Below are positions 275 through 13,400 of a DNA stretch of 64,000 nt, one piece after another. The notes beneath the pieces were generated by a model. The model made no database searches, was not told the DNA's origin, and saw only the letters and a list, made by a program, of their open reading frames with translations. Position numbers and translations under genes: made by a program. Origin of the DNA: Branchiostoma floridae (Eukaryota > Chordata > Leptocardii > Amphioxiformes > Branchiostomatidae); the NCBI RefSeq assembly GCF_000003815.2, contig NC_049981.1, positions 11,696,964-11,760,963 on the forward strand, read 5' to 3'. The number at the start of each line of letters is the position of its first letter. The first letter of the stretch is position 1.

Positions 275-3200
275 TTCCTCCCTCTTCTCTGGACCTGGGA
301 TCGGGCGCGAGACCCAAGCAGAGAAAACGTGTGCCGCTGTCCCCCAACCTCAATGTTAACCTGGACAGCACCATGACCACGCAGGACAGCGTGGACGAGA
401 CTCCAGATGACCTGGATGATGACGACCTTGACAACCTTCCCGATGACATTGATACTCCAGATGACATTGACGACTTTGATTCGTCAGGACATGGAAATGA
501 CCTTGAATGGGAAGGTAAATAAATTCAAAATCTTGAATTCTGTGTGATGTTGACAACAGTTACATGAGTCAAGTTCACATAGATGAGCCAGGAAGAATCT
601 TTTCTGCAGAACTAGGAGACCTAGGATAAATACTGATACTCAAGAAAGTTGACAGAAAAACAAGAAGGAATAAAAATACTTTTTTAGATATTTAGCACAA
701 AATGTTGAATGCTATGATAAATTTTGACTGGACCGCTACTGTTACATCCTTTAAAATGCATGTTAGCAAGCTTAAATCTTGACTTTTACCTGCGTTGCAT
801 GTTTTTGTTGATTTTCATTTTACTTTTCACCTGCTGGTTTGGCTTGGAAACCCTGGGCTTTCAAAGGGACAGTCTCAAATGTTCAATGACATTCTCCTTC
901 ATCATCAAAAGCAGTTGGAGTTGACTTTTATAAAATAATGCACATAGTCTGTTGTTACATGGAAATCAGTGCAGTATCAAAGAATATGGTCGGCAATTAA
1001 CTTGAGTGTGAAATTTCTTGAAAGCAGAACTTTTGAGATTGCCCCAGCTTTAAACTGCAGCTTTTGAGCTTGAGTGGCATTTATAGTTGAAATCTCTTGT
1101 TTTGACTCTGATTTGCTCATCGAACCCCAGACGACATCTGTGCCCTATCTGATGAGCTGGAGTGGGACGGTGAGGCGGATGTTGCTTTGGTGACAACTTT
1201 GTAGTCAGCCCTGTAGATTACTGGTTACATCAATCTAATCAGTTGTTTTGATTGCCTTTCTTGATGCTAAACATTGTTTTATTGAAATAAAGAGAAGGTC
1301 TTTTTTGTACATTCCTTTCATCACTACGAACTTAAGTAATAAATCAAAAATACAGTTCAGTTTAGTTTTGTTGTAGACTGAAAAATCTGTAAAATCCAAA
1401 GCCCGTTTTTTTACTATTTGCTTGTTTCTTCTGTAACTGTGGAAAAAAGACTATATTTTGTGAAAGCTTCTTTGTTGAGCCAAATTGTGATACAAAGCAG
1501 TGTTTTGATTGGATTTTAAAGATGTTTAAATCTCACTTAACTAAAAGGAAGGAAGCGAAATAGCTGAGACACAACTTATTAGATTGATGTTACTTAGATT
1601 GTGACATGTTCTAACTACCTTTCTAACTCACAGCTTGCTGCTTGACTTGTTGCAGAAGCAAAACCTTCATGTGCAGTGTTAAGGACTGGTTTCAGTGTAT
1701 TTTTATGCATGACTTGTGTGTTATTCTGTATTTAACTTCGCATTCCGTAACATGGGTCACACTTTTCTATCTATATACTGTCTGCTAGCATTTTGTCTAA
1801 CTTTAATGAAATTTGTCCAAAGATAAAATCTAGAATCAAGGCTTGGCCATAAATGTCTGCAAACAAAACTCTCACTAAAAGTAAATATTTACAAGTCAAC
1901 AGATACTTTAGAACAAAGGAATTTCCATGCAACATTATTAACACAGCATGCTCAACTATCAACTTTAACTTGTATATATTATAAGTATTAATTAAGAGTC
2001 TAAAACAAATCACACAGCCTTAATTTATATTATAATAACTCTAATTGCACCATTTACCTGAAAGAAATTTGGAAATTGTCAAAGTTCTAATGTACACATC
2101 TGTCTTGCATGGCACCACCACATTTAATATTTCCAAACAATTTTTCTTTCAAAGTAACATATTACAGACTGAAATGTGCTTTATACAAGTTGAATGTTAT
2201 GTACTATTGTTTTCAAAGTCTTATTGTGAGAAAAAAACTCTATCAAAGTACCATAAATTGTTTCATTGTTTTCTAGAAATGGAACCTATCCATCCTATTA
2301 TTCAGTCTCCAGATTGCTCCTTAGATTGCTTTCCTTACTGAATAGATTTAAAAAAAGAAAGTTAAACTTTGCTTCGTAGGAAGCAATGATTATCTAAGGA
2401 GTGATCTAGAGCTAGCATTGGATGGATTTCAGGCTAGAAGGTGAAAGGAAGAAATTAATTTCTGTTACAAATATTGTTCGCTGTGTATGGTTTGTTGCAT
2501 GGAGGTTCCTTGTTTCAGAGTTGCTATTGGTGTACGTGCCCTGGAAAACTCAACCAGACCTCAGTAAGACAGGCAAGGACAAGTCAACATTTTCTGCCAT
2601 TCACTAACAACTTTTCATCAAAACAAATTAGTATTCTAGCTTGTTTTTGAAGAAATGTTACTATTTCTATCACATGAAACAGATATAATATTTTTACCAT
2701 GAAAATAATCTGTAATAGAGAGGGTGGTGGTATGGTCTAAGTTTAGCTTGCCATTAAGTATTGCTAGTGAAGACTTTTTTTATCATTATGTATCCCATGT
2801 TAAGATAATCATAATCCAACTTAGGTCCCTATAAAGAAGACACGAATGCACAGCATGTTTCACAAAAGATTTATTTTCAGGTAATCAAAAAGCAACAAAC
2901 AAGATCTAGGCTAATGTCTTGATACTGTCAGTTTGTTTTGAGTTTCTTAATTCTTAAATGATATAAAATAAACCCAGCTAAGCAATCTATATTGCACCTG
3001 AATACCTTCTGCTGTGTAAACCTGCATGTTCACTCTGGTAAAACCGGCTAGAACATAAAGGTTGTTGCCCATAAGTTACCCTCAATGATTTTACATCGCA
3101 ATTCTTACTTCATTTGAAGTAATGAATCGAGAAGGAATGTAGTGGATTGTGCTTAATGATATATGAAAGTAGGGGAAATATGAGGTTAAATATCATTTAG

Positions 3201-6200
3201 CAAGAGAAGAAAGAAAACAGAGACTGAAATAGGGACATATTTTTGTTCTAAAATGCCTTCAGTTTTTTCCTTTGAAATTGAATTGATGCCCGGAGATTTT
3301 CATCCATATATTCAATTAATGTGGCGTTATCAGTTACTGCAACTGCACAGTACCATAGGTACATGTAATTACATGTATGCACAAAACTGTGTGTTTTGCC
3401 AGTTTGACATTCAAAAGTCTTCATTCCTGTATGTGTCCCCCAGACGACACGCCCATCGGGAGCAGTCGCACCACCCCCCAGGGCGAGAGCGTGCCTCAGT
3501 TTGCCGCGGATGAGGAGGCGCGGATGTGGAGAACTGTGGTGATTGGTGAGCAGGAGCACCGCATCGACATGAAGGTCATTGATCCGTACAAGAAGGTCAT
3601 CTCGCACGGTGGTGAGTGGATCTCTCTAATTTTAGCCTCTCGATGAGTTCTTGTCATGAATTTTTCATGGGTGTTACATAAAGCTGTTGATAAGCTGTCG
3701 AGTAGCTGGATGTGAACTTTCAAGATGTTGCCTGTTATTGTTAATGATGCCCTTCTTACTGTGTTACCACTGTGAAGGAGGGCAATGATTTCCAATGGGG
3801 GTATTGTTTTTTGTCGGTGTTTGTGCGTATGAACCAGTTATATAACTCAAAATCTAGTTATTGAGGTGCCCATGATGCATAGTGATTTTGGATTTTGGAT
3901 GGTCAATTGGACCCTAGCAGTATTTTTTGAATTTCTTGTTATCCTTTCAGTTGTGATTTAATCCTGAAGTACATGTAATTGTTTGAATACTCTTACTTAT
4001 GTCTGTAAATTTGTTACTAGTACTTGATTTATGATTTTTTTCTATGTTTGTCTTATTTCCTGTCTTTATTAATTTCATATCATTTTACCTTACATTTATG
4101 GAATTTTAGCATCAGGTCAGACATTTCATTCAACTTGTCATGTGATTCAGGAATGGCCTTTGGACTTAGTCTAGCTATTCTACTGCAGCTGATATCCTAC
4201 TGTAATATCTAGAATTTTTATCTATTCTAAGAGAACGATGAAAATGATAAGGGATAGACATTTTTTTGCTTTTCATTCGAAAAGTTATTGTTAGCTCTCT
4301 TTCTCTTCAGCATTATAACTTTAATGTGAATTTGATAGAACCAACCAGCCCATGACTTGATGAGTATATGCTACAAATGTACTCCTTTGAAATTTCCTTT
4401 GATGTACTCATGAGAGATGTTACCAAAATATAAATGTAATACAGATAGACTGTAGAAACAGACCAGGACAATAACATGGTAGACCTGGTTTTGAAAGGGA
4501 ACGCGAAATTTGAACTGCACATTTATGAAACAGCAGTTGCACTATGAATTCAAAGGTGACAGTAACGAACATTAGTACACAAGATAAGCACAAGCTGTGT
4601 AGTCCAAAAAAAACATCAAACCCCTGGACTATCTCTGTAATAATCTCTACAATAATTTGTATACATGTATATTATCTTTCCAGGTCTACTGATGATGTAA
4701 CATGTTGTCCTAAATTAGTAGATACTAACTCTTTCTATCCTTAGTTTTTAAATATACATTCTGCAGTAGTTTTACATCCTGATTATGTCCTTTTGGTTTT
4801 TAATATTCTCCTTTTCTCCTTCCTTCAACTGACTTCTACAACACGAAAGGGAACACCAGTAAGCCTCACCTCCTTCCCTCCGCTCTCTAGATAACTCTAA
4901 CAGTTGCACCAGTTCATCCAAGTAAATGGCTGGAAAGCTTCAAAATGTACCTCACTAAGCTGCTGAATTTGAAATGTGCAAGGGTTTGGAATGTTACAGT
5001 GCAGTCACATTTGTGGCAGGTCATCGATTGGTTTAGAGCAAACTATGACAGTCTAAATTCAACCAGCCACCAAAAAGGCTTCACATTTGCATAATACAAC
5101 TTTTTCTGTAACAAGACTTTTTACGAATTCTGCAGGACACACCTACTTATGCAGAGAATGCCCTCAAAATCTGATTGTACGACATATCGGTGACTGCGCC
5201 CTACAATTAAAAAAATATGCTAACAAAGAATCCTGAAAAAAAGATCCTTCATAAGAAAATTCACAGGAAAAAGCAAAACAAAATGAAAAAAAATCCATTA
5301 ACAGTCTGTAACTGTGCATGAATGTGAAATGGATGGAGCTACAAGTTGCTGCCAAGTTACTGCCAATTTGCCGAACAAATCCTTCTGGTTGAACAAAAAA
5401 TTTAAGAGCTTTGGATCTACTGGTGGTGACAACTGTGCTGTTTTCCCTGCTCTGAGTTTCTTTCCTTTTGTCTTTCCCAATCTTCTGTAACAGCTAGGAA
5501 TAATGTTGAATGTCTAAGAAGCATGATTTTCAGTATTGCTTCTCTGTTTGTTAGTTTGTTTTGTACTTACTAACCATGTCTTCCTTTGTTGTTGCAGGTT
5601 ACTATGGAGAAGGACTGAACGCCATCATCGTGTTTGCAGCATGTTATATGCCCGACAGCAGCAGGCCTGACTATAAATATGTCATGGACAACCTCTTCCT
5701 GTAAGTAACATTAACTCTAGGAGCTAGCACAGTATCATAGCGGGGTAGAGTGGTACACTTTTGCATACAGGGGGTCCCGGGTTCAAATCCCAACTGGCCA
5801 TACATATAAAACTCAAATAATGGTAGCCATCTCTGATACTAGTTGACTAGATTGAGCTTGACTTTTATTTTAACTCCATCAATGGAGTTTATGTTTTTTG
5901 GTATGTGAGGTTGTTTGGGACAGTATGTTTAGTTACTTGAGTGACAGCTAGTGAGGGAAAAAGAACTTCAAATGTCTGACTTGTGGTAGTGGTATCGAGT
6001 ACAGAAAGTGCAGGTCAGAGTTGGTAGAATTGGAAGCTGTTAATTAGACATTAAAGTGACCAATGGGATATGTAATGTTAATCAAAACATTACTAGCATT
6101 AAATGAACTACACTTAAACAAAACATATAAGTGACTCTGTATTTTCTATCTTGGCATGAGATCTTCAAACTCTTGTTTATGAAGGTAATAGAAGACAAAA

Positions 6201-9200
6201 TGTTGCATTTTTTTAAGATGGGAGGTTACATATTAACAACTTTTTCATACAATCCTCCACTGCAGGTATATAATCAGCACCTTGGAGTTACTGGTGGCTG
6301 AAGACTACATGATCGTGTACCTCCATGGAGGCACACCCAGACAGAACGTCCCTTCTATTGGTTGGCTCAAGAAGTGTTACCAGATGATTGACAGGAGGTA
6401 AGGACAGTGTTCTGATTCAAGTCTGACTATGGGTCATACCAACTTCAGGGAGGGGAACTTGTTTCTGATAAACACCATCCGCACACATGTAAACATACCT
6501 GTCATTGGTTCTGAACACCATCCACACACATGTTAACATGCCTGTCCTTGGTGCTGAACACCATTCACACACATGTAAACATGTCTGTCCTTGGTGCTGA
6601 ACATTATCCGCACACAGATGAACATGTCTGTCCTTGGTGCTGAACACTACACAGATGAACATGTCTGTCCTTGGTGCTGAACACTACACAGATGAACATG
6701 CCTGTCCTCGGTGCTTAACACTACACAGATGAACATGCCTGTCCTCGGTGCTGAACACTACACAGATGAACATGCCTGTCCTCGGTGCTGAACACTACAC
6801 AGATGAACATGCCTGTCCTCGGTGCTGAACACTACACAGATGAACATGCCTGTCCTCGGTGCTGAACACTACACAGATGAACATGCCTGTCCTCGGTGCT
6901 GAACACTACACAGATGAACATGCCTGTCCTCGGTGCTGAACACTACACAGATGAACATGCCTGTCCTCGGTGCTGAACACTACACAGATGAACATGCCTG
7001 TCCTCGGTGCTGAACACTACACAGATGAACATGCCTGTCCTCGGTGCTGAACACTACACAGATGAACATGCCTGTCCTTGGTGCTGAACACTACACAGAT
7101 GAACATGCCTGTCCTCGGTGCTGAACACTACACAGATGAACATGCCTGTCCTCGGTGCTGAACACTACACAGATGAACATGCCTGTCCTCGGTGCTGAAC
7201 ACTACACAGATGAACATGCCTGTCCTCGGTGCTGAACACTACACAGATGAACATGCCTGTCCTCGGTGCTGAACACTACACAGATGAACATGCCTGTCCT
7301 CGGTGCTGAACACTACACAGATGAACATGCCTGTCCTCGGTGCTGAACACTACACAGATGAACATGCCTGTCCTCGGTGCTGAACACTACACAGATGAAC
7401 ATGCCTGTCCTCGGTGCTGAACACTACACAGATGAACATGCCTGTCCTCGGTGCTGAACACTACCCACAGGAACATGACTTTTTCTGGGGCTGAACACTG
7501 CCTACACTGTCAGGATTATGCCTGATCTTGGTGCTGAACAGGACTTCTGGACATTGTTGTAAGAACTTTTATCCATGATTATGTTTGTTTGTTTGTTTCC
7601 AGGTTACGTAAGAACTTGAAACAGTTGCTGATCGTGCACCCGTCCTTCTGGCTGAAGACCATCATCCGTTTCACGAGACCCTTCATCAGGTCAGCCACTT
7701 GTTCTTTATTCTACCACTCTTCTTGTTCCTTTCAGTGAATGTACTGTAATGTAGGGTCTCTGATGTTTATATGTACATTCTTCTAAAAGGGTACTGCTAG
7801 ACTGAAACATGGAAAGAAGAATTTGTACTTGCACCATAATTGCTAATTGAGATGTCAGATGCAATTTTAACATTATTATGATAATTTTCAAAAGTCAGTG
7901 TGCTCAGAAATACTGTTGATTCATTAGTTGCCAATCTATATAGAGTATGTGTTTTTTCATACATTTCATGATTTTGTAACCTGAACTTGTGTGTGCTTTT
8001 GCTGCAGTTCCAAGTTCTACAGGAAGGTGGTGTTTGTGTACAGCCTGAGTGACCTGGCCTCCAAAATTCCCATGGAGTACATCTACATACCAGAGCATAT
8101 AAGGGAGTAAGTCTGAACGCTGCTGCAACCTGTGTCCTTGGGCTCACTTTAGGAAGGTCACACTGACTGTTATGGTTTAAAAGTGAAAGTAAAAGTGATT
8201 TGTACCCAGTTAAGTGTAAAACAGCTCAATAAACAAAAGAAACGATTATCCCCTGTTTGTGACAGAGAAGACAGACACAATCGTACAGTCATTGTACCTG
8301 ATATTTTCCTGTAGATCATTTCTACAAGTACTGACCTTTGGTCTGCAACCCTTTCCAGTAGCATGCATATGGACTTGGCGAAACATCCAGGATTCAAACT
8401 TGAGTTCTGAGTCCAGGCACAGTGTTGCCAATCACTGGACTTTGCATGTGACTTTTCATGTCTGCATGTACTTCTGAACTTATGTTGTGACCTTGCTGGA
8501 GAATGGCATTGTGGCATCTATTCAATTTCAAAGTGTCATTGAAAACTAGAAATATAAACTTTGAAAATAGCGACAGAAGTTACAGTACATCTCTGGTCAG
8601 CCCAAGACACATGTTGAGTATATGGCCGTACAATGTGTTAGCCATGCAGGGATCAAACTTACCCATTCTATAGCAACCAGTTATTATAGCATGACATCTA
8701 ATTTTTATAAAATTGGCCAATCAAAAGCATTTGGCAAAGATAGCATTGATGGAAACAGCCAGATTTGAGCATTTATTGGGTTGTTGTTGATGAAATGGGT
8801 ACGTTTGAGGTCATGGCTAACCGTCCGTGGCCTTGTATGATGTGGTATATAGAGGCACATGTGGGGACGGCATACTTCACCCCACACTGACTCACAGGAC
8901 AACAACAGACGACTCTCCTCTTTCAACCACTGTTTTCACTCCTACCTACTGTAAGGTTTTCCATGTATTATAGTTACTCTAGTAGACATATTTCCTATAG
9001 TACTGTATCATCTCTTTCTAAGGACCCTAACTTTCCTACCATTGCTCAAAGTTGCACAACGTGTTTCAAACTGACTGACAAACATGTACAGTACAAGACT
9101 TTACCACTTTCCCATCTTTTGCATTCTAAATCATAAGTATATAATGTACCATTTAAAATGTGCTTAATATTCATCCATCAAAAGTGATATTATTGCTTTA

Positions 9201-10421
9201 CGTTAAAAATGTAACTCTGATTTGTTTTGATCTGTTTATCAGTAATTATAACATTTATGTCATAAGATTATTTGAATGGTTTTGATTTTGCTTACGTAAA
9301 CTAATTTTTTTTTTCTTATGTTGTTTCCTTTTCAAGTTTTGATAGAAGAGTCACCAAGAAAAGATAGAAGTGTCAGGTTTGATCATAATCCATTGATTCT
9401 GTTTGCATGCTGTTTTCTCTGCATGTTTCTGAGTTGTTGGAGTGTTCTTTACTTAAGATTCACTTCAGTCTGTTACTCTTATATACACACACTCAGTTGT
9501 TTCCTTCTGTCATACATGTAGAATAGTGTAATGCATGAAATCATTTATGTATGGTGTAGTTTAGTATTGCTTCAGTGTTTATAAGATAGTGTCATGGGAT
9601 TTCAGAGCGCAGTAGTTCCAGGAAAAACAGTTTGACAAAGTCCTATTTGTAGGTGCAAGATTGCTGACAAACTTACAAGTACATATGCAAGTTATATTGT
9701 ATTGCTTTTCAATGTTTCATCAAACATATAGAAAACTGTTACAGTAGCCTAAATTTCAAAAGAACGTACACCAACTGTTACAGCCTACTACATCACTTTG
9801 GAAAGGTGAATCCACAGGGCTTAGCATTTATTTTGGGAATAGTTGCACTAGGCTTAAAAGTTTATATGTGCACAGAAAAGTTTTGGGTGCACAACATGAA
9901 ATGAAGTAGAATTTCAGAAAGAACAAATAATGATACAAACCTTGCTGCTTTTATTCAGAGCTTGGATCTTAAATTTTACCTAATTTTAACATTCTAAACA
10001 AGTAATACAACAAAGTTTTAAACATTTTTCTGACACTAAAATGTCAAGAATATGCTGTATACTAAGTGTACCTTTAGATACCCAACCCTAAACAAATATG
10101 TAGGATAACCAAAATTAGGTGAACAGGCAGCTCTATTTTTTGGTGTCAGCCAGTATTTTTTGATGTCTATTTTCCAGTAGTATGTTCACGTTGTTCCTAA
10201 CTGTTTTCCCCAGATACGATAAGGACTTCCAGATGAAACGTTCCATGAGTTTCATCGCGGGCCCGACCACCTCCCCGCTGGGCTCCCCGACCACGCAGAT
10301 GCAGCTGAACAGACCCGGCGCACAGCGACAGGACAGCAGCACGTCAAAGGAGTCACGGACCTCCTCCACACTCAGCCCCAAGTCTGAGTCACCACCAGAG
10401 AAGACTGGGAAAGTGGTGTGA
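275..10421 (+). CDS. ATCAY-like: Caytaxin/BNIP2-family protein (BCH/CRAL-TRIO domain), 3' eight exons
   Basis: Coding exons: 275-514, 1131-1169, 3444-3611, 5598-5700, 6266-6397, 7603-7689, 8008-8106 and 10214-10421 (TGA at 10419). All junctions are GT/AG and keep frame. The first exon begins at a CAG acceptor in mid-codon, so the start codon lies left of the window; the in-frame ATG at 250 would be intronic. The N-terminal part has the RKR motif and acidic DTPDD stretches typical of caytaxin and BNIP2, followed by DLEWEDD, the tryptophan-acidic motif that binds kinesin light chain in caytaxin. The BCH domain follows, starting [14 protein letters not shown] and [18 protein letters not shown], then [38 protein letters not shown] and IPMEYIYIP. 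By memory of the family it is nearer caytaxin/PRUNE2 than BNIP2. Vertebrate members are cytosolic scaffolds linking cargo or enzymes to kinesin-1 and Rho regulators. The tail is Ser/Pro-rich and has no close family match. Confidence 0.93.
1131..1169 (+). other. 39-base symmetric exon encoding a second W-acidic motif
   Basis: It is flanked by a CAG acceptor and a GTGAGG donor. Length is divisible by three and both flanking introns are phase 1, so it can be included or skipped without changing frame. Skipping gives DLEWEDDTPIG, which matches vertebrate caytaxin. Inclusion gives [17 protein letters not shown] followed by DDDTPIG, duplicating the Trp-acidic core. That the exon is alternatively spliced is inferred from its symmetry. 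Confidence 0.75.
5726..5800 (+). repeat. tRNA-derived SINE head in an intron
   Basis: An A-box-like TAGCGGGGTAGAGTGG is followed about 35 bases later by a B-box-like GGTTCAAATCC at 5780-5790. There is no clean cloverleaf or CCA-adjacent stem, so it reads as a SINE remnant and not a tRNA gene. Confidence 0.5.
6471..7466. repeat. Minisatellite: 43-bp units passing into about 22 units of 37 bp
   Basis: It lies in the intron between exons 6266-6397 and 7603-7689. The first units begin at 6471, 6514, 6557 and 6600 (43-bp spacing, diverged). From 6643 the spacing drops to 37 bp (6643, 6680, 6717 and onward) by loss of six bases in a CA-rich stretch, and the copies become nearly identical to about 7463. 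The core of each unit is TGTCCTYGGTGCTGAACAC. One unit near 7077 keeps the ancestral T of CCTTGG, showing imperfect homogenisation. Confidence 0.97.
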
Positions 10422-13400
10422 GTGAGCACTGCTCAGAGTAGACCCAAGTCCCCAGTGTAAATATATAATTTGGAACTCATGCTTTTTATGTTTACCGCCA
10501 GGAAGGGAAACATACTGTTTTTGCTCTGTTTCTTCTTCCTATCAAAACAAATAAGGTCAATGACCTAGACCAGACAGCTGTCACCATGGTTACTGGTTAA
10601 GTAGTAGACACCCTGTGGTGTTTAATTACATTATGTAGCAAGTGGCAGGACAGCTGAAGGTGCTGGTCTTGAGTAAGAATAAACAGAGAAGTCATTTGTT
10701 AGGCTAGACCATGTAAACATAAATGTATTTGGTTGTAAATGCTTCTCTCTATTGTTTAGTCTTGCTGCTTTATCTTTTGTAAGAATAGATTGATAGGGTT
10801 CATATTTTAAGAGATTGATTTTGCAGTGTTACAAACCAAAATGTACTGAATGATATTACAGACAAAATGTGAAGTGCAAAATGAAATATCAGCAAACCAT
10901 TATACAATACTATTGCTTGCATGCTTGGCTTAAGTTCGTTCAAGCAAAGAATTTAGCAATTTGTCGTAATGAATTTGGTCCTGTGTAGCAATATTACCAT
11001 ATTGAAGAATGAACAGATTTTGAGCAACTACAGTTGAATGACGGGAAGTTAAGCCAAAGGTCCCAGAATGGTCCTAGAATAGCTTATCCCATTTCCTGTC
11101 TTAAGTTTCCTGCTTAAGTTTATTAAAAGTTTCTGGTTATTCTGTGCAATGAGTTACTGTAAATAAGTTTGCTGCTTTAAATGCAAAAAAGTCAATCAAT
11201 CACGTAAATATTGATGATAGAATCATGATTGTGCTGTTGAGCAGTGTATAGTAATCTTAAATTTTGTGTTGCAATTCTAAAACCAATTTAGCTCATAGAA
11301 TTTCTTGTCTTTGTACTCCCTTTTCCTTGAGACCATATTGGTCATAGATTTGTATTTACTGTTACGGTATCAGACTTTGCCAAAAAAATTGTTTGTTTTT
11401 TGTACATACACAACACTGTAGTCTGAATGGGGACTTGGTAATTAGAACACCTACTGATTTGCCATTGATGAAAACTCTTGGAAAGTTAATTGTTGGAAGT
11501 TCTATTCTAAAGAAAACTATCACAAGGAAATGTAGTTTGTAAATGTCTGTGAATAGAGTAAAAAACGTGTTGTCATTTCTGTAGTAAATAATAAAAAAAA
11601 GGGCCTAGCTACATGTTACTAGCTGCTACATTGTATGAACCAAGATGTCTTGTTGGAAAGAAAATGTTATAAAAGTCTGTTAATAGATGCGTTATAGTTT
11701 GGTGAGTCTATGTGAGCTAAAGTCTGCACAAAGTAACAGAGCTCTAGTCCAGATATAGATGATTGTATAGTTTTTGCGCTATGAAAAATGTTGTGGAAAA
11801 ATATCACATTTAAATCTAGAGTCATTTTGTTGGATGCTAAATGTGAAGCAGGGTTTGCAAGATGATGGTCAGGTTTTTGGCGACGCCTCCGGGGTTTAGC
11901 CTGTAGTTTATACATTATAGAGAGTTTGCTGTACAAACAACTAATTAGAGTGTTATGTGAAGGATTGACAGGTCCTGCTTATGTGTACATTATCAGATTG
12001 AAAGTAACATGTTTTTGAGTTCTTGCACAAGTCTGTTGTAGCTTTGGGAAATTATTGGCTGGAATGGATTTTTGTCAAATCAGATAGGGTAAAGAAGGTA
12101 CTTTTGCCTTTTACTTGTATTCCCTCAATAGGTTCTTGCTTGGTAATTCAGTAGTCTCCAAGCAGAGGTTAGGCACAGCTTGTTTGTTCTGTAGGTCTTG
12201 CTTATTATATATTGCCTAGCTTTTTCTGGCATTCAACAAGGATGGCAGAGCTTCTCCCTGGGAATTATCAAATTATCACCAGGTGTAATCATTTTACAGC
12301 ATGGAATTATCACACATCTGGCCAGTGCAATTAGCGCTCAGCTGTGCTGTGCTCACAAATCCCCGTAAGACTTTTACAGTTACCGTACTTAATGTTGAGA
12401 TGACCAACTGGAGGATAGAGCATACTTAATGTCCTGTTAAACAAAATGGTTGCCCTCCCAAAACACACCCTGGCAACTGTAACAAGGCTTGATCCATATA
12501 TTCTACTCAATTAGTTTTTGTCAGCATTGATATCATACTTAAGATATTACAGAGCTGATACTAAAGAAAATGCTACATCTAAGTAGTGATGTATTGGTAA
12601 TTAAAAGTAAAGAATCGCCTCATGTAGTTTTGTCACTTTGTTGATTCAGAACTGTATTTGAGATCATGTCATTTTAGTTTCTTGCAGTACTTGCACAAAA
12701 CACAACAATAAGTACAAAGAGTAGCATATGACTGAAGCGTACATGTACATCTTGTTCTAGGTGTACTTAGACGTTATTCTTTGTTCTGAACAAAGATGAA
12801 ATACAATATTACACAGATGTGTGTTTGTAATGACAAGCTTTGCTTTCTGTAGATCAGAGAGCCTGATTATAAAACATACCTTCTTTTCTTCACAATCATT
12901 TCTATGTGTGAGTTGCACAAAATAAAGTATGCTAGGAAAATAAGTGCATGATTACATTGTTGCAATGATACTACATTTTGTCAAGTTGTAACGGACCAGG
13001 AACAATTTTAGTGGCTAAGAAGCTACAAAAATTCCAAACAGCACTGTGATGAAAAAAAATGATTTTCACAAAAATGTGTGAGGAATGCAGACAGCAAAAA
13101 GATCAAAATTTTGGCACCAACAGAAAACTACACCAATAGCTGCCATTTTGATTTTTCCTGGTCCCTTGTTTTGGGAATGACTTTGCATAGATACATGTTT
13201 GCGTGCATTGTAGAGCATTTTGCAGCAAATATGTTTTTATTATACAAACTCCCAAACATTCAAAAGCTGCAAACCTATAGTAAGTATACATACAGGTAAA
13301 TCAATTCATTCTAGTTTGTGACACAGATTTCTTTTTATATTGATATCAAACACAGTCTTGCTTTTTCAAAATGCAGGTAAATAAAATTGGTGATGTCATG

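Follow-up and report, generated by a model that had tools for sequence, protein, structure and literature searches.

Kinesin light chain (KLC) binds W-acidic (WD) motifs, for which the consensus L-E/D-W (or another aromatic)-D/E-D/E-S/N has been described (PMC2829069). Caytaxin (ATCAY/BNIP-H), a member of the same family as the lancelet gene analysed here, binds KLC through such a W-acidic motif, ELEWED (PMC2829069, PMC5450233, PMC3511541). According to work cited in PMC5450233, WD motifs bring cargo into axons better when several follow one another than when they stand alone, and in calsyntenin mutation of one of the two motifs leaves 30% of the KLC1 binding and mutation of both leaves 3% (PMC2829069). 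Calsyntenin-1 resembles the predicted lancelet protein in having paired W-acidic motifs in one cargo protein, although it is a membrane protein and its pair is not described in that source as splice-regulated (PMC2829069).

Splicing controls the number or the presence of such sites in two other proteins. SKIP (PLEKHM2) has an optional exon 7 for residues 219-238, which contain the second of its two WD motifs. Birds, fish and frogs share this alternative splicing, and overexpression of the short form makes lysosomes cluster near the nucleus and not at the periphery (PMC3240744). The lancelet exon, as read from the DNA alone, would be of the same kind, an optional short exon holding a second W-acidic KLC-binding motif, whereas SKIP is a RUN-domain lysosome adaptor, with a 20-residue exon that has ESTs and PCR behind it and a motif spacing of 29 residues (W207 and W236), compared with 13 in the lancelet (PMC3240744). 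In SorCS2, KLC1 is bound only by those variants to which alternative splicing has added an acidic insert of 14 residues (PMC10463258), so that splicing decides the binding; however, this insert comes from an alternative 5' splice site and not from a cassette, creates a site rather than doubling one, and lies in a receptor tail (PMC10463258). The SKIP precedent makes a switch between one and two kinesin contacts plausible in the lancelet and also less novel, and together with SorCS2 it means that the proposed mechanism is already known in kind.

Within the BNIP2/caytaxin family, the three isoforms of caytaxin described in mammals and in a bird have been reported to derive from one transcript, two of them from alternative start codons and the third from an unknown source, and in vitro translation speaks against splicing (PMC3511541). 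The sequence-only reading on which this work is based knew of no comparable exon in vertebrate caytaxin, in agreement with these one-transcript isoforms as that source reports them; caytaxin has a single motif, in contrast to the extra exon of the lancelet gene (PMC3511541). A small optional exon exists within the family in PRUNE2, a 9-nt microexon whose primers place it one junction further downstream (VIEPYR / YGDGLNA) and which adds no W-acidic motif (PMC8641155). No report of an exon like 1131-1169 in BNIP2, PRUNE2, ATCAY/caytaxin or amphioxus was found among the matches listed in the open-licence literature, and because this search covered listings of open-licence papers it is weak evidence of absence for a prior report. 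We rate the lancelet exon as an additional case, in a family without such an exon among the matches listed.

The lancelet gene and its 39-nt cassette

The window (the whole stretch of Branchiostoma floridae DNA that was analysed, 64 kb, G000:C3:11696964-11760963) belongs to a 513,431,437-base genome with 431 contigs, and contains within its first 10.4 kb most of one gene, with the following features in window coordinates (a slash marks an exon junction).

275..514, + strand: upstream coding exon, ending GNDLEWE/G, with the first W-acidic motif, LEWED
515..1130, + strand: upstream part of the intron, with acceptor ...CATCGAACCCCAG and a TGC at -17
1131..1169, + strand: putative 39-nt symmetric exon, encoding 13 residues plus a D over the junction, with the second W-acidic motif, LEWDD
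1170..3443, + strand: downstream part of the intron, with donor GTGAGG at 1170
3444..3611, + strand: next coding exon, starting ACGAC, which restores DD after either motif
5598-5700, 6266-6397, 7603-7689, 8008-8106 and 10214-10422, + strand: remaining coding exons, with the CRAL_TRIO_2 (BCH) domain and the C-terminus

When the exons are joined, translation runs free of stops from 275 to a stop codon at 10422, and the same stop codon is reached in an open frame with or without the 39-nt exon. The protein was proposed to be caytaxin-like, and this is borne out by matches to Pfam BNIP2 (PF12496) and CRAL_TRIO_2 (PF13716), both above the cut-off for the inclusion and the skipping proteins alike (CRAL_TRIO is matched more weakly). 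The relatives of known structure found by sequence are Rho GTPase-activating proteins that contain BCH domains (3 chains); one more structure match, with an E value of 0.63, is unrelated. In the skipping form the LEWE-D-D motif precedes the BCH domain (GNDLEWEDDTP), and it presumably has a vertebrate counterpart at this position in the BNIP2/caytaxin family; we take the caytaxin motif to be identical and to stand at the same place before DDTP. A whole-genome profile search with PF12496 matched two places, both of them exons of this gene at the window start, so the BNIP2/caytaxin gene appears to be single-copy, which fits the origin of the four vertebrate groups of the family that has been ascribed to two genome-wide duplications (PMC3313917). 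A PRUNE-type DHHA2 domain had no match in the genome, in a search that was positive in 5/14 controls and that an intron-split domain could escape.

Other elements of the locus lie outside the region of the cassette. At G000:C3:11688890, which lies some 8.07 kb before the start of the window, MEGVAVQEEWQDDELPG probably serves as the first coding exon for the short form, and we assume that it resembles the N-terminus of vertebrate BNIP2. The N-terminal QEEWQDDELP was considered as a further W-acidic motif and rejected, since the missing L/M at -2 and the Q after W place it outside the KLC consensus. About 9.3-13.7 kb upstream of the window, on the same strand, there is a stop-free frame of about 1460 codons (L004:5785-9498 into L003:2-670), acidic and with many NPF/DPF, which we presume to be reminiscent of the giant exon of PRUNE2; if it were spliced to the gene, one locus would give both a long form like PRUNE2 and a short form like caytaxin. 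The intron between 6266-6397 and 7603-7689 contains a 37-bp minisatellite (25.8 copies, 96% matches, window 6535-7499).

The cassette, inside intron 515-3443, is flanked by CATCGAACCCCAG (with a CCCCAG border) just before it and GTGAGG just after it. It begins with AC (ACGAC) and finishes with G, and thus fits both the end of exon 275-514, whose final G is the first base of a codon, and the start of exon 3444-3611, which opens with ACGAC; the acidic residues after each W are encoded across the junction as G/ACGAC. Because it starts like one neighbouring exon and ends like the other, either splice choice rebuilds an intact W-acidic motif. Skipping gives the peptide GNDLEWEDDTPIG, with one LEWED, and inclusion a 26-residue peptide with LEWED and LEWDD, 13 residues apart from W to W, so that coordinates, frame, peptide and the doubling of the motif had all been correctly read. 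Only 13 residues separate the two forms, and 11/26 residues of this segment are acidic in the inclusion form vs 5/13 in the skipping form. The score of the Pfam BNIP2 profile falls with the exon (102.7 bits for the inclusion protein vs 117.2 bits for the skipping protein), indicating that, compared with the family, these 13 residues are an insertion. The stretch has the properties of an alternative cassette (length divisible by 3, matching phases, AG/GT borders), and the predicted skippability of 1131-1169 is drawn solely from its phase symmetry.

Splice sites and predicted inclusion of the cassette

Splice sites were scored with a vertebrate frequency table. By this table, the donor GTGAGG at 1170 has the top score of the 171 GTs in 515-3443 plus edges, including the constitutive donor at 514, and is third among the 7 donors of the gene, whereas the acceptor of the 39-nt exon is the lowest of the 8 scored in the gene and 15th of 174 AGs in the intron. 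A weak acceptor together with a strong donor is common among optional short exons of mammals. Exons of flies that depend on the eMIC have weak 3' sites and UGC motifs (PMC8797185), and a neural (eMIC/Srrm-type) microexon would be short and included in neural tissue. The lancelet stretch has 39 nt, the weakest acceptor and a TGC at -17 from it, but this TGC is not distinctive, because a TGC within 60 nt is also found at 4/7 other acceptors. The eMIC regulator PF15230 had no match in the genome, as in the control genomes, which were likewise without a match. TGCATG (RBFOX-type), one of 6 motifs tried in the intron, occurs there six times against a mean of 1.27 in 300 shuffles (1/300 reaches 6), at window positions 757, 796, 1706, 2106, 2496 and 3023, the nearest being more than 300 nt from the exon.

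A strong donor is also what a constitutive exon would have, and phase symmetry alone does not prove skipping, so the segment could be a lineage-specific 13-residue insertion that gives the protein two motifs at all times and no switch. We consider this unlikely, given that the acceptor is the weakest of the 8, that 39 nt is short and that the skipping form fits the family profile better; 1131-1169 is probably an optional exon.

Chance, uniqueness and origin

The expectation by chance was estimated with 2000 dinucleotide-preserving shuffles of intron 515-3443, counting every in-phase AG..GT cassette of 9-120 nt that encodes [DE][LIVMF][DE]W[DE][DE]. The real intron contains exactly one, 1131-1169, and such a cassette appeared in 0/2000 shuffled introns, which argues that it is not due to chance. 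The motif-plus-donor pattern GANYTNGANTGGGANGGTRAG has one match in the 513,431,437-base genome, the 1131-1169 site itself, while its backward control has none, and the intron-less motif pattern GANYTNGANTGGGANGACGA has 0 matches. A 301-base stretch around the exon has a single match in the genome, so the region is single-copy and this match revealed no second allele; viral contigs scanned for stray animal DNA yielded no relative. The stretch is, in our judgement, very probably a real exon.

Its origin was explored by aligning the exon and its flanks with exon 275-514, exon 3444-3611 and the intron. The exon end with its donor matches the end of exon 275-514 at 16/20 bases (14/500 shuffles reach the score), and CCCCAGACGACA is common to the 39-nt exon site and the acceptor of 3444 (12/12 bases; 2/500 shuffles), a match made less telling by its AG and GAC, which are partly imposed by the splice site and by the DD that has to be encoded. 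The sequence-only reading had proposed that the exon arose by duplication of the motif. This claim is not established. For the whole site, the similarity to the tail of exon 275-514, the motif itself included, scores 30.5 and is reached by 2/2000 shuffles, although at least 15 unrelated segments outscore it among the 6362 scanned across these 64 kb. Upstream of the motif, the similarity is reached by 314/3000 shuffles and 17/340 other intron stretches without gaps, and by 352/3000 and 13/340 with gaps. At the protein level, a collinear TPDDI..LEWDG match scores 43, second in the window to an unrelated acidic stretch at 45. Overall, the comparison is suggestive of an exon that may have arisen by duplication of the motif, an event that would be old.

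The same 16/20 bases across the donor and the collinear protein match would fit a cryptic or decayed 1131-1169 that is spliced seldom or not at all and keeps its open frame by accident, whether it is an ancient copy of the exon 275-514 end or a product of chance. This is quite unlikely, since a decayed copy need not retain the frame, the phase, a well-placed AG and the best donor of the intron, and chance alone does not produce such a cassette in the shuffles.

A possible second contact with kinesin light chain

LEWED and LEWDD both fit the core L-E/D-W-D/E-D/E of the published consensus, as expected from the earlier proposal that the motif is of the W-acidic kinesin-binding type; the last consensus position, S/N, is absent, being D in both motifs. 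On the side of the receptor, the best match of the genome to mammalian KLC2 has TPR exons identical at 53/53 and 35/35 residues, and its other TPR exons are 57 to 90% identical in the pieces seen. Mutation of N287 or R312 disrupts W-acidic binding by KLC (PMC5450233, PMC6224480), and the 35-residue exon, whose sole N/R pair 25 residues apart has the spacing of N287 and R312, was for this reason assigned these two published residues. A receptor for W-acidic motifs very likely exists in the genome, as judged from this conservation.

The KLC gene (G000:C1) also contains tandem 90-nt exons, 74 nt apart (L014:6629-6718 and 6793-6882), each with AG/GT borders, which are identical at 71/90 bases and 27/30 residues. 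They are candidate mutually exclusive exons for the same part of the TPR domain. That splicing sets both sides of the kinesin-1/cargo contact, with one or two motifs in the adaptor, one of two TPR exons in KLC and a cell-type-specific pairing of them, is a very doubtful extension of these observations.

An acidic segment used for something besides KLC, such as spacing or the binding of a different partner to the acidic linker, would suit a protein rich in acidic stretches to which the insert adds more, and BCH proteins have several partners (PMC3327665), but it is improbable because the insert restores the exact L-E-W-acidic-acidic core, and not mere charge, and the KLC groove exon is conserved. 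The 39-nt exon would likely act as a second KLC contact.

The best explanation, which we hold at somewhat better than even, is that the single BNIP2/caytaxin-type gene has a real short exon, probably included alternatively, which would encode a second KLC contact. Counted in its favour were the frame, the empty shuffles, the first rank of the donor among the 171 GTs, the unique genome match and the insertion relative to the family, as well as the identical KLC TPR exons, the two-motif binding of calsyntenin and the splicing of SKIP. Counted against it were the weakest acceptor (8th of 8, 15th of 174), the missing S/N in both motifs, the TGC that is not distinctive and the eMIC domain without a match (its controls also without one). 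Under this explanation, skipping would leave one W-acidic motif and inclusion would give two, 13 residues apart from W to W, each able to bind the groove of the KLC TPR domain. Two motifs should raise avidity, or engage both light chains of one motor, and the doubled motif would strengthen kinesin-1 transport of the cargo of the protein. We infer in this way the transcription, regulated skipping, KLC binding and transport effect of the exon.

If the exon is used, it would be a further SKIP-like case, in a different adaptor family, in which splicing sets the number of kinesin-1 contacts, and this would suggest motif number as a recurrent dial on transport.
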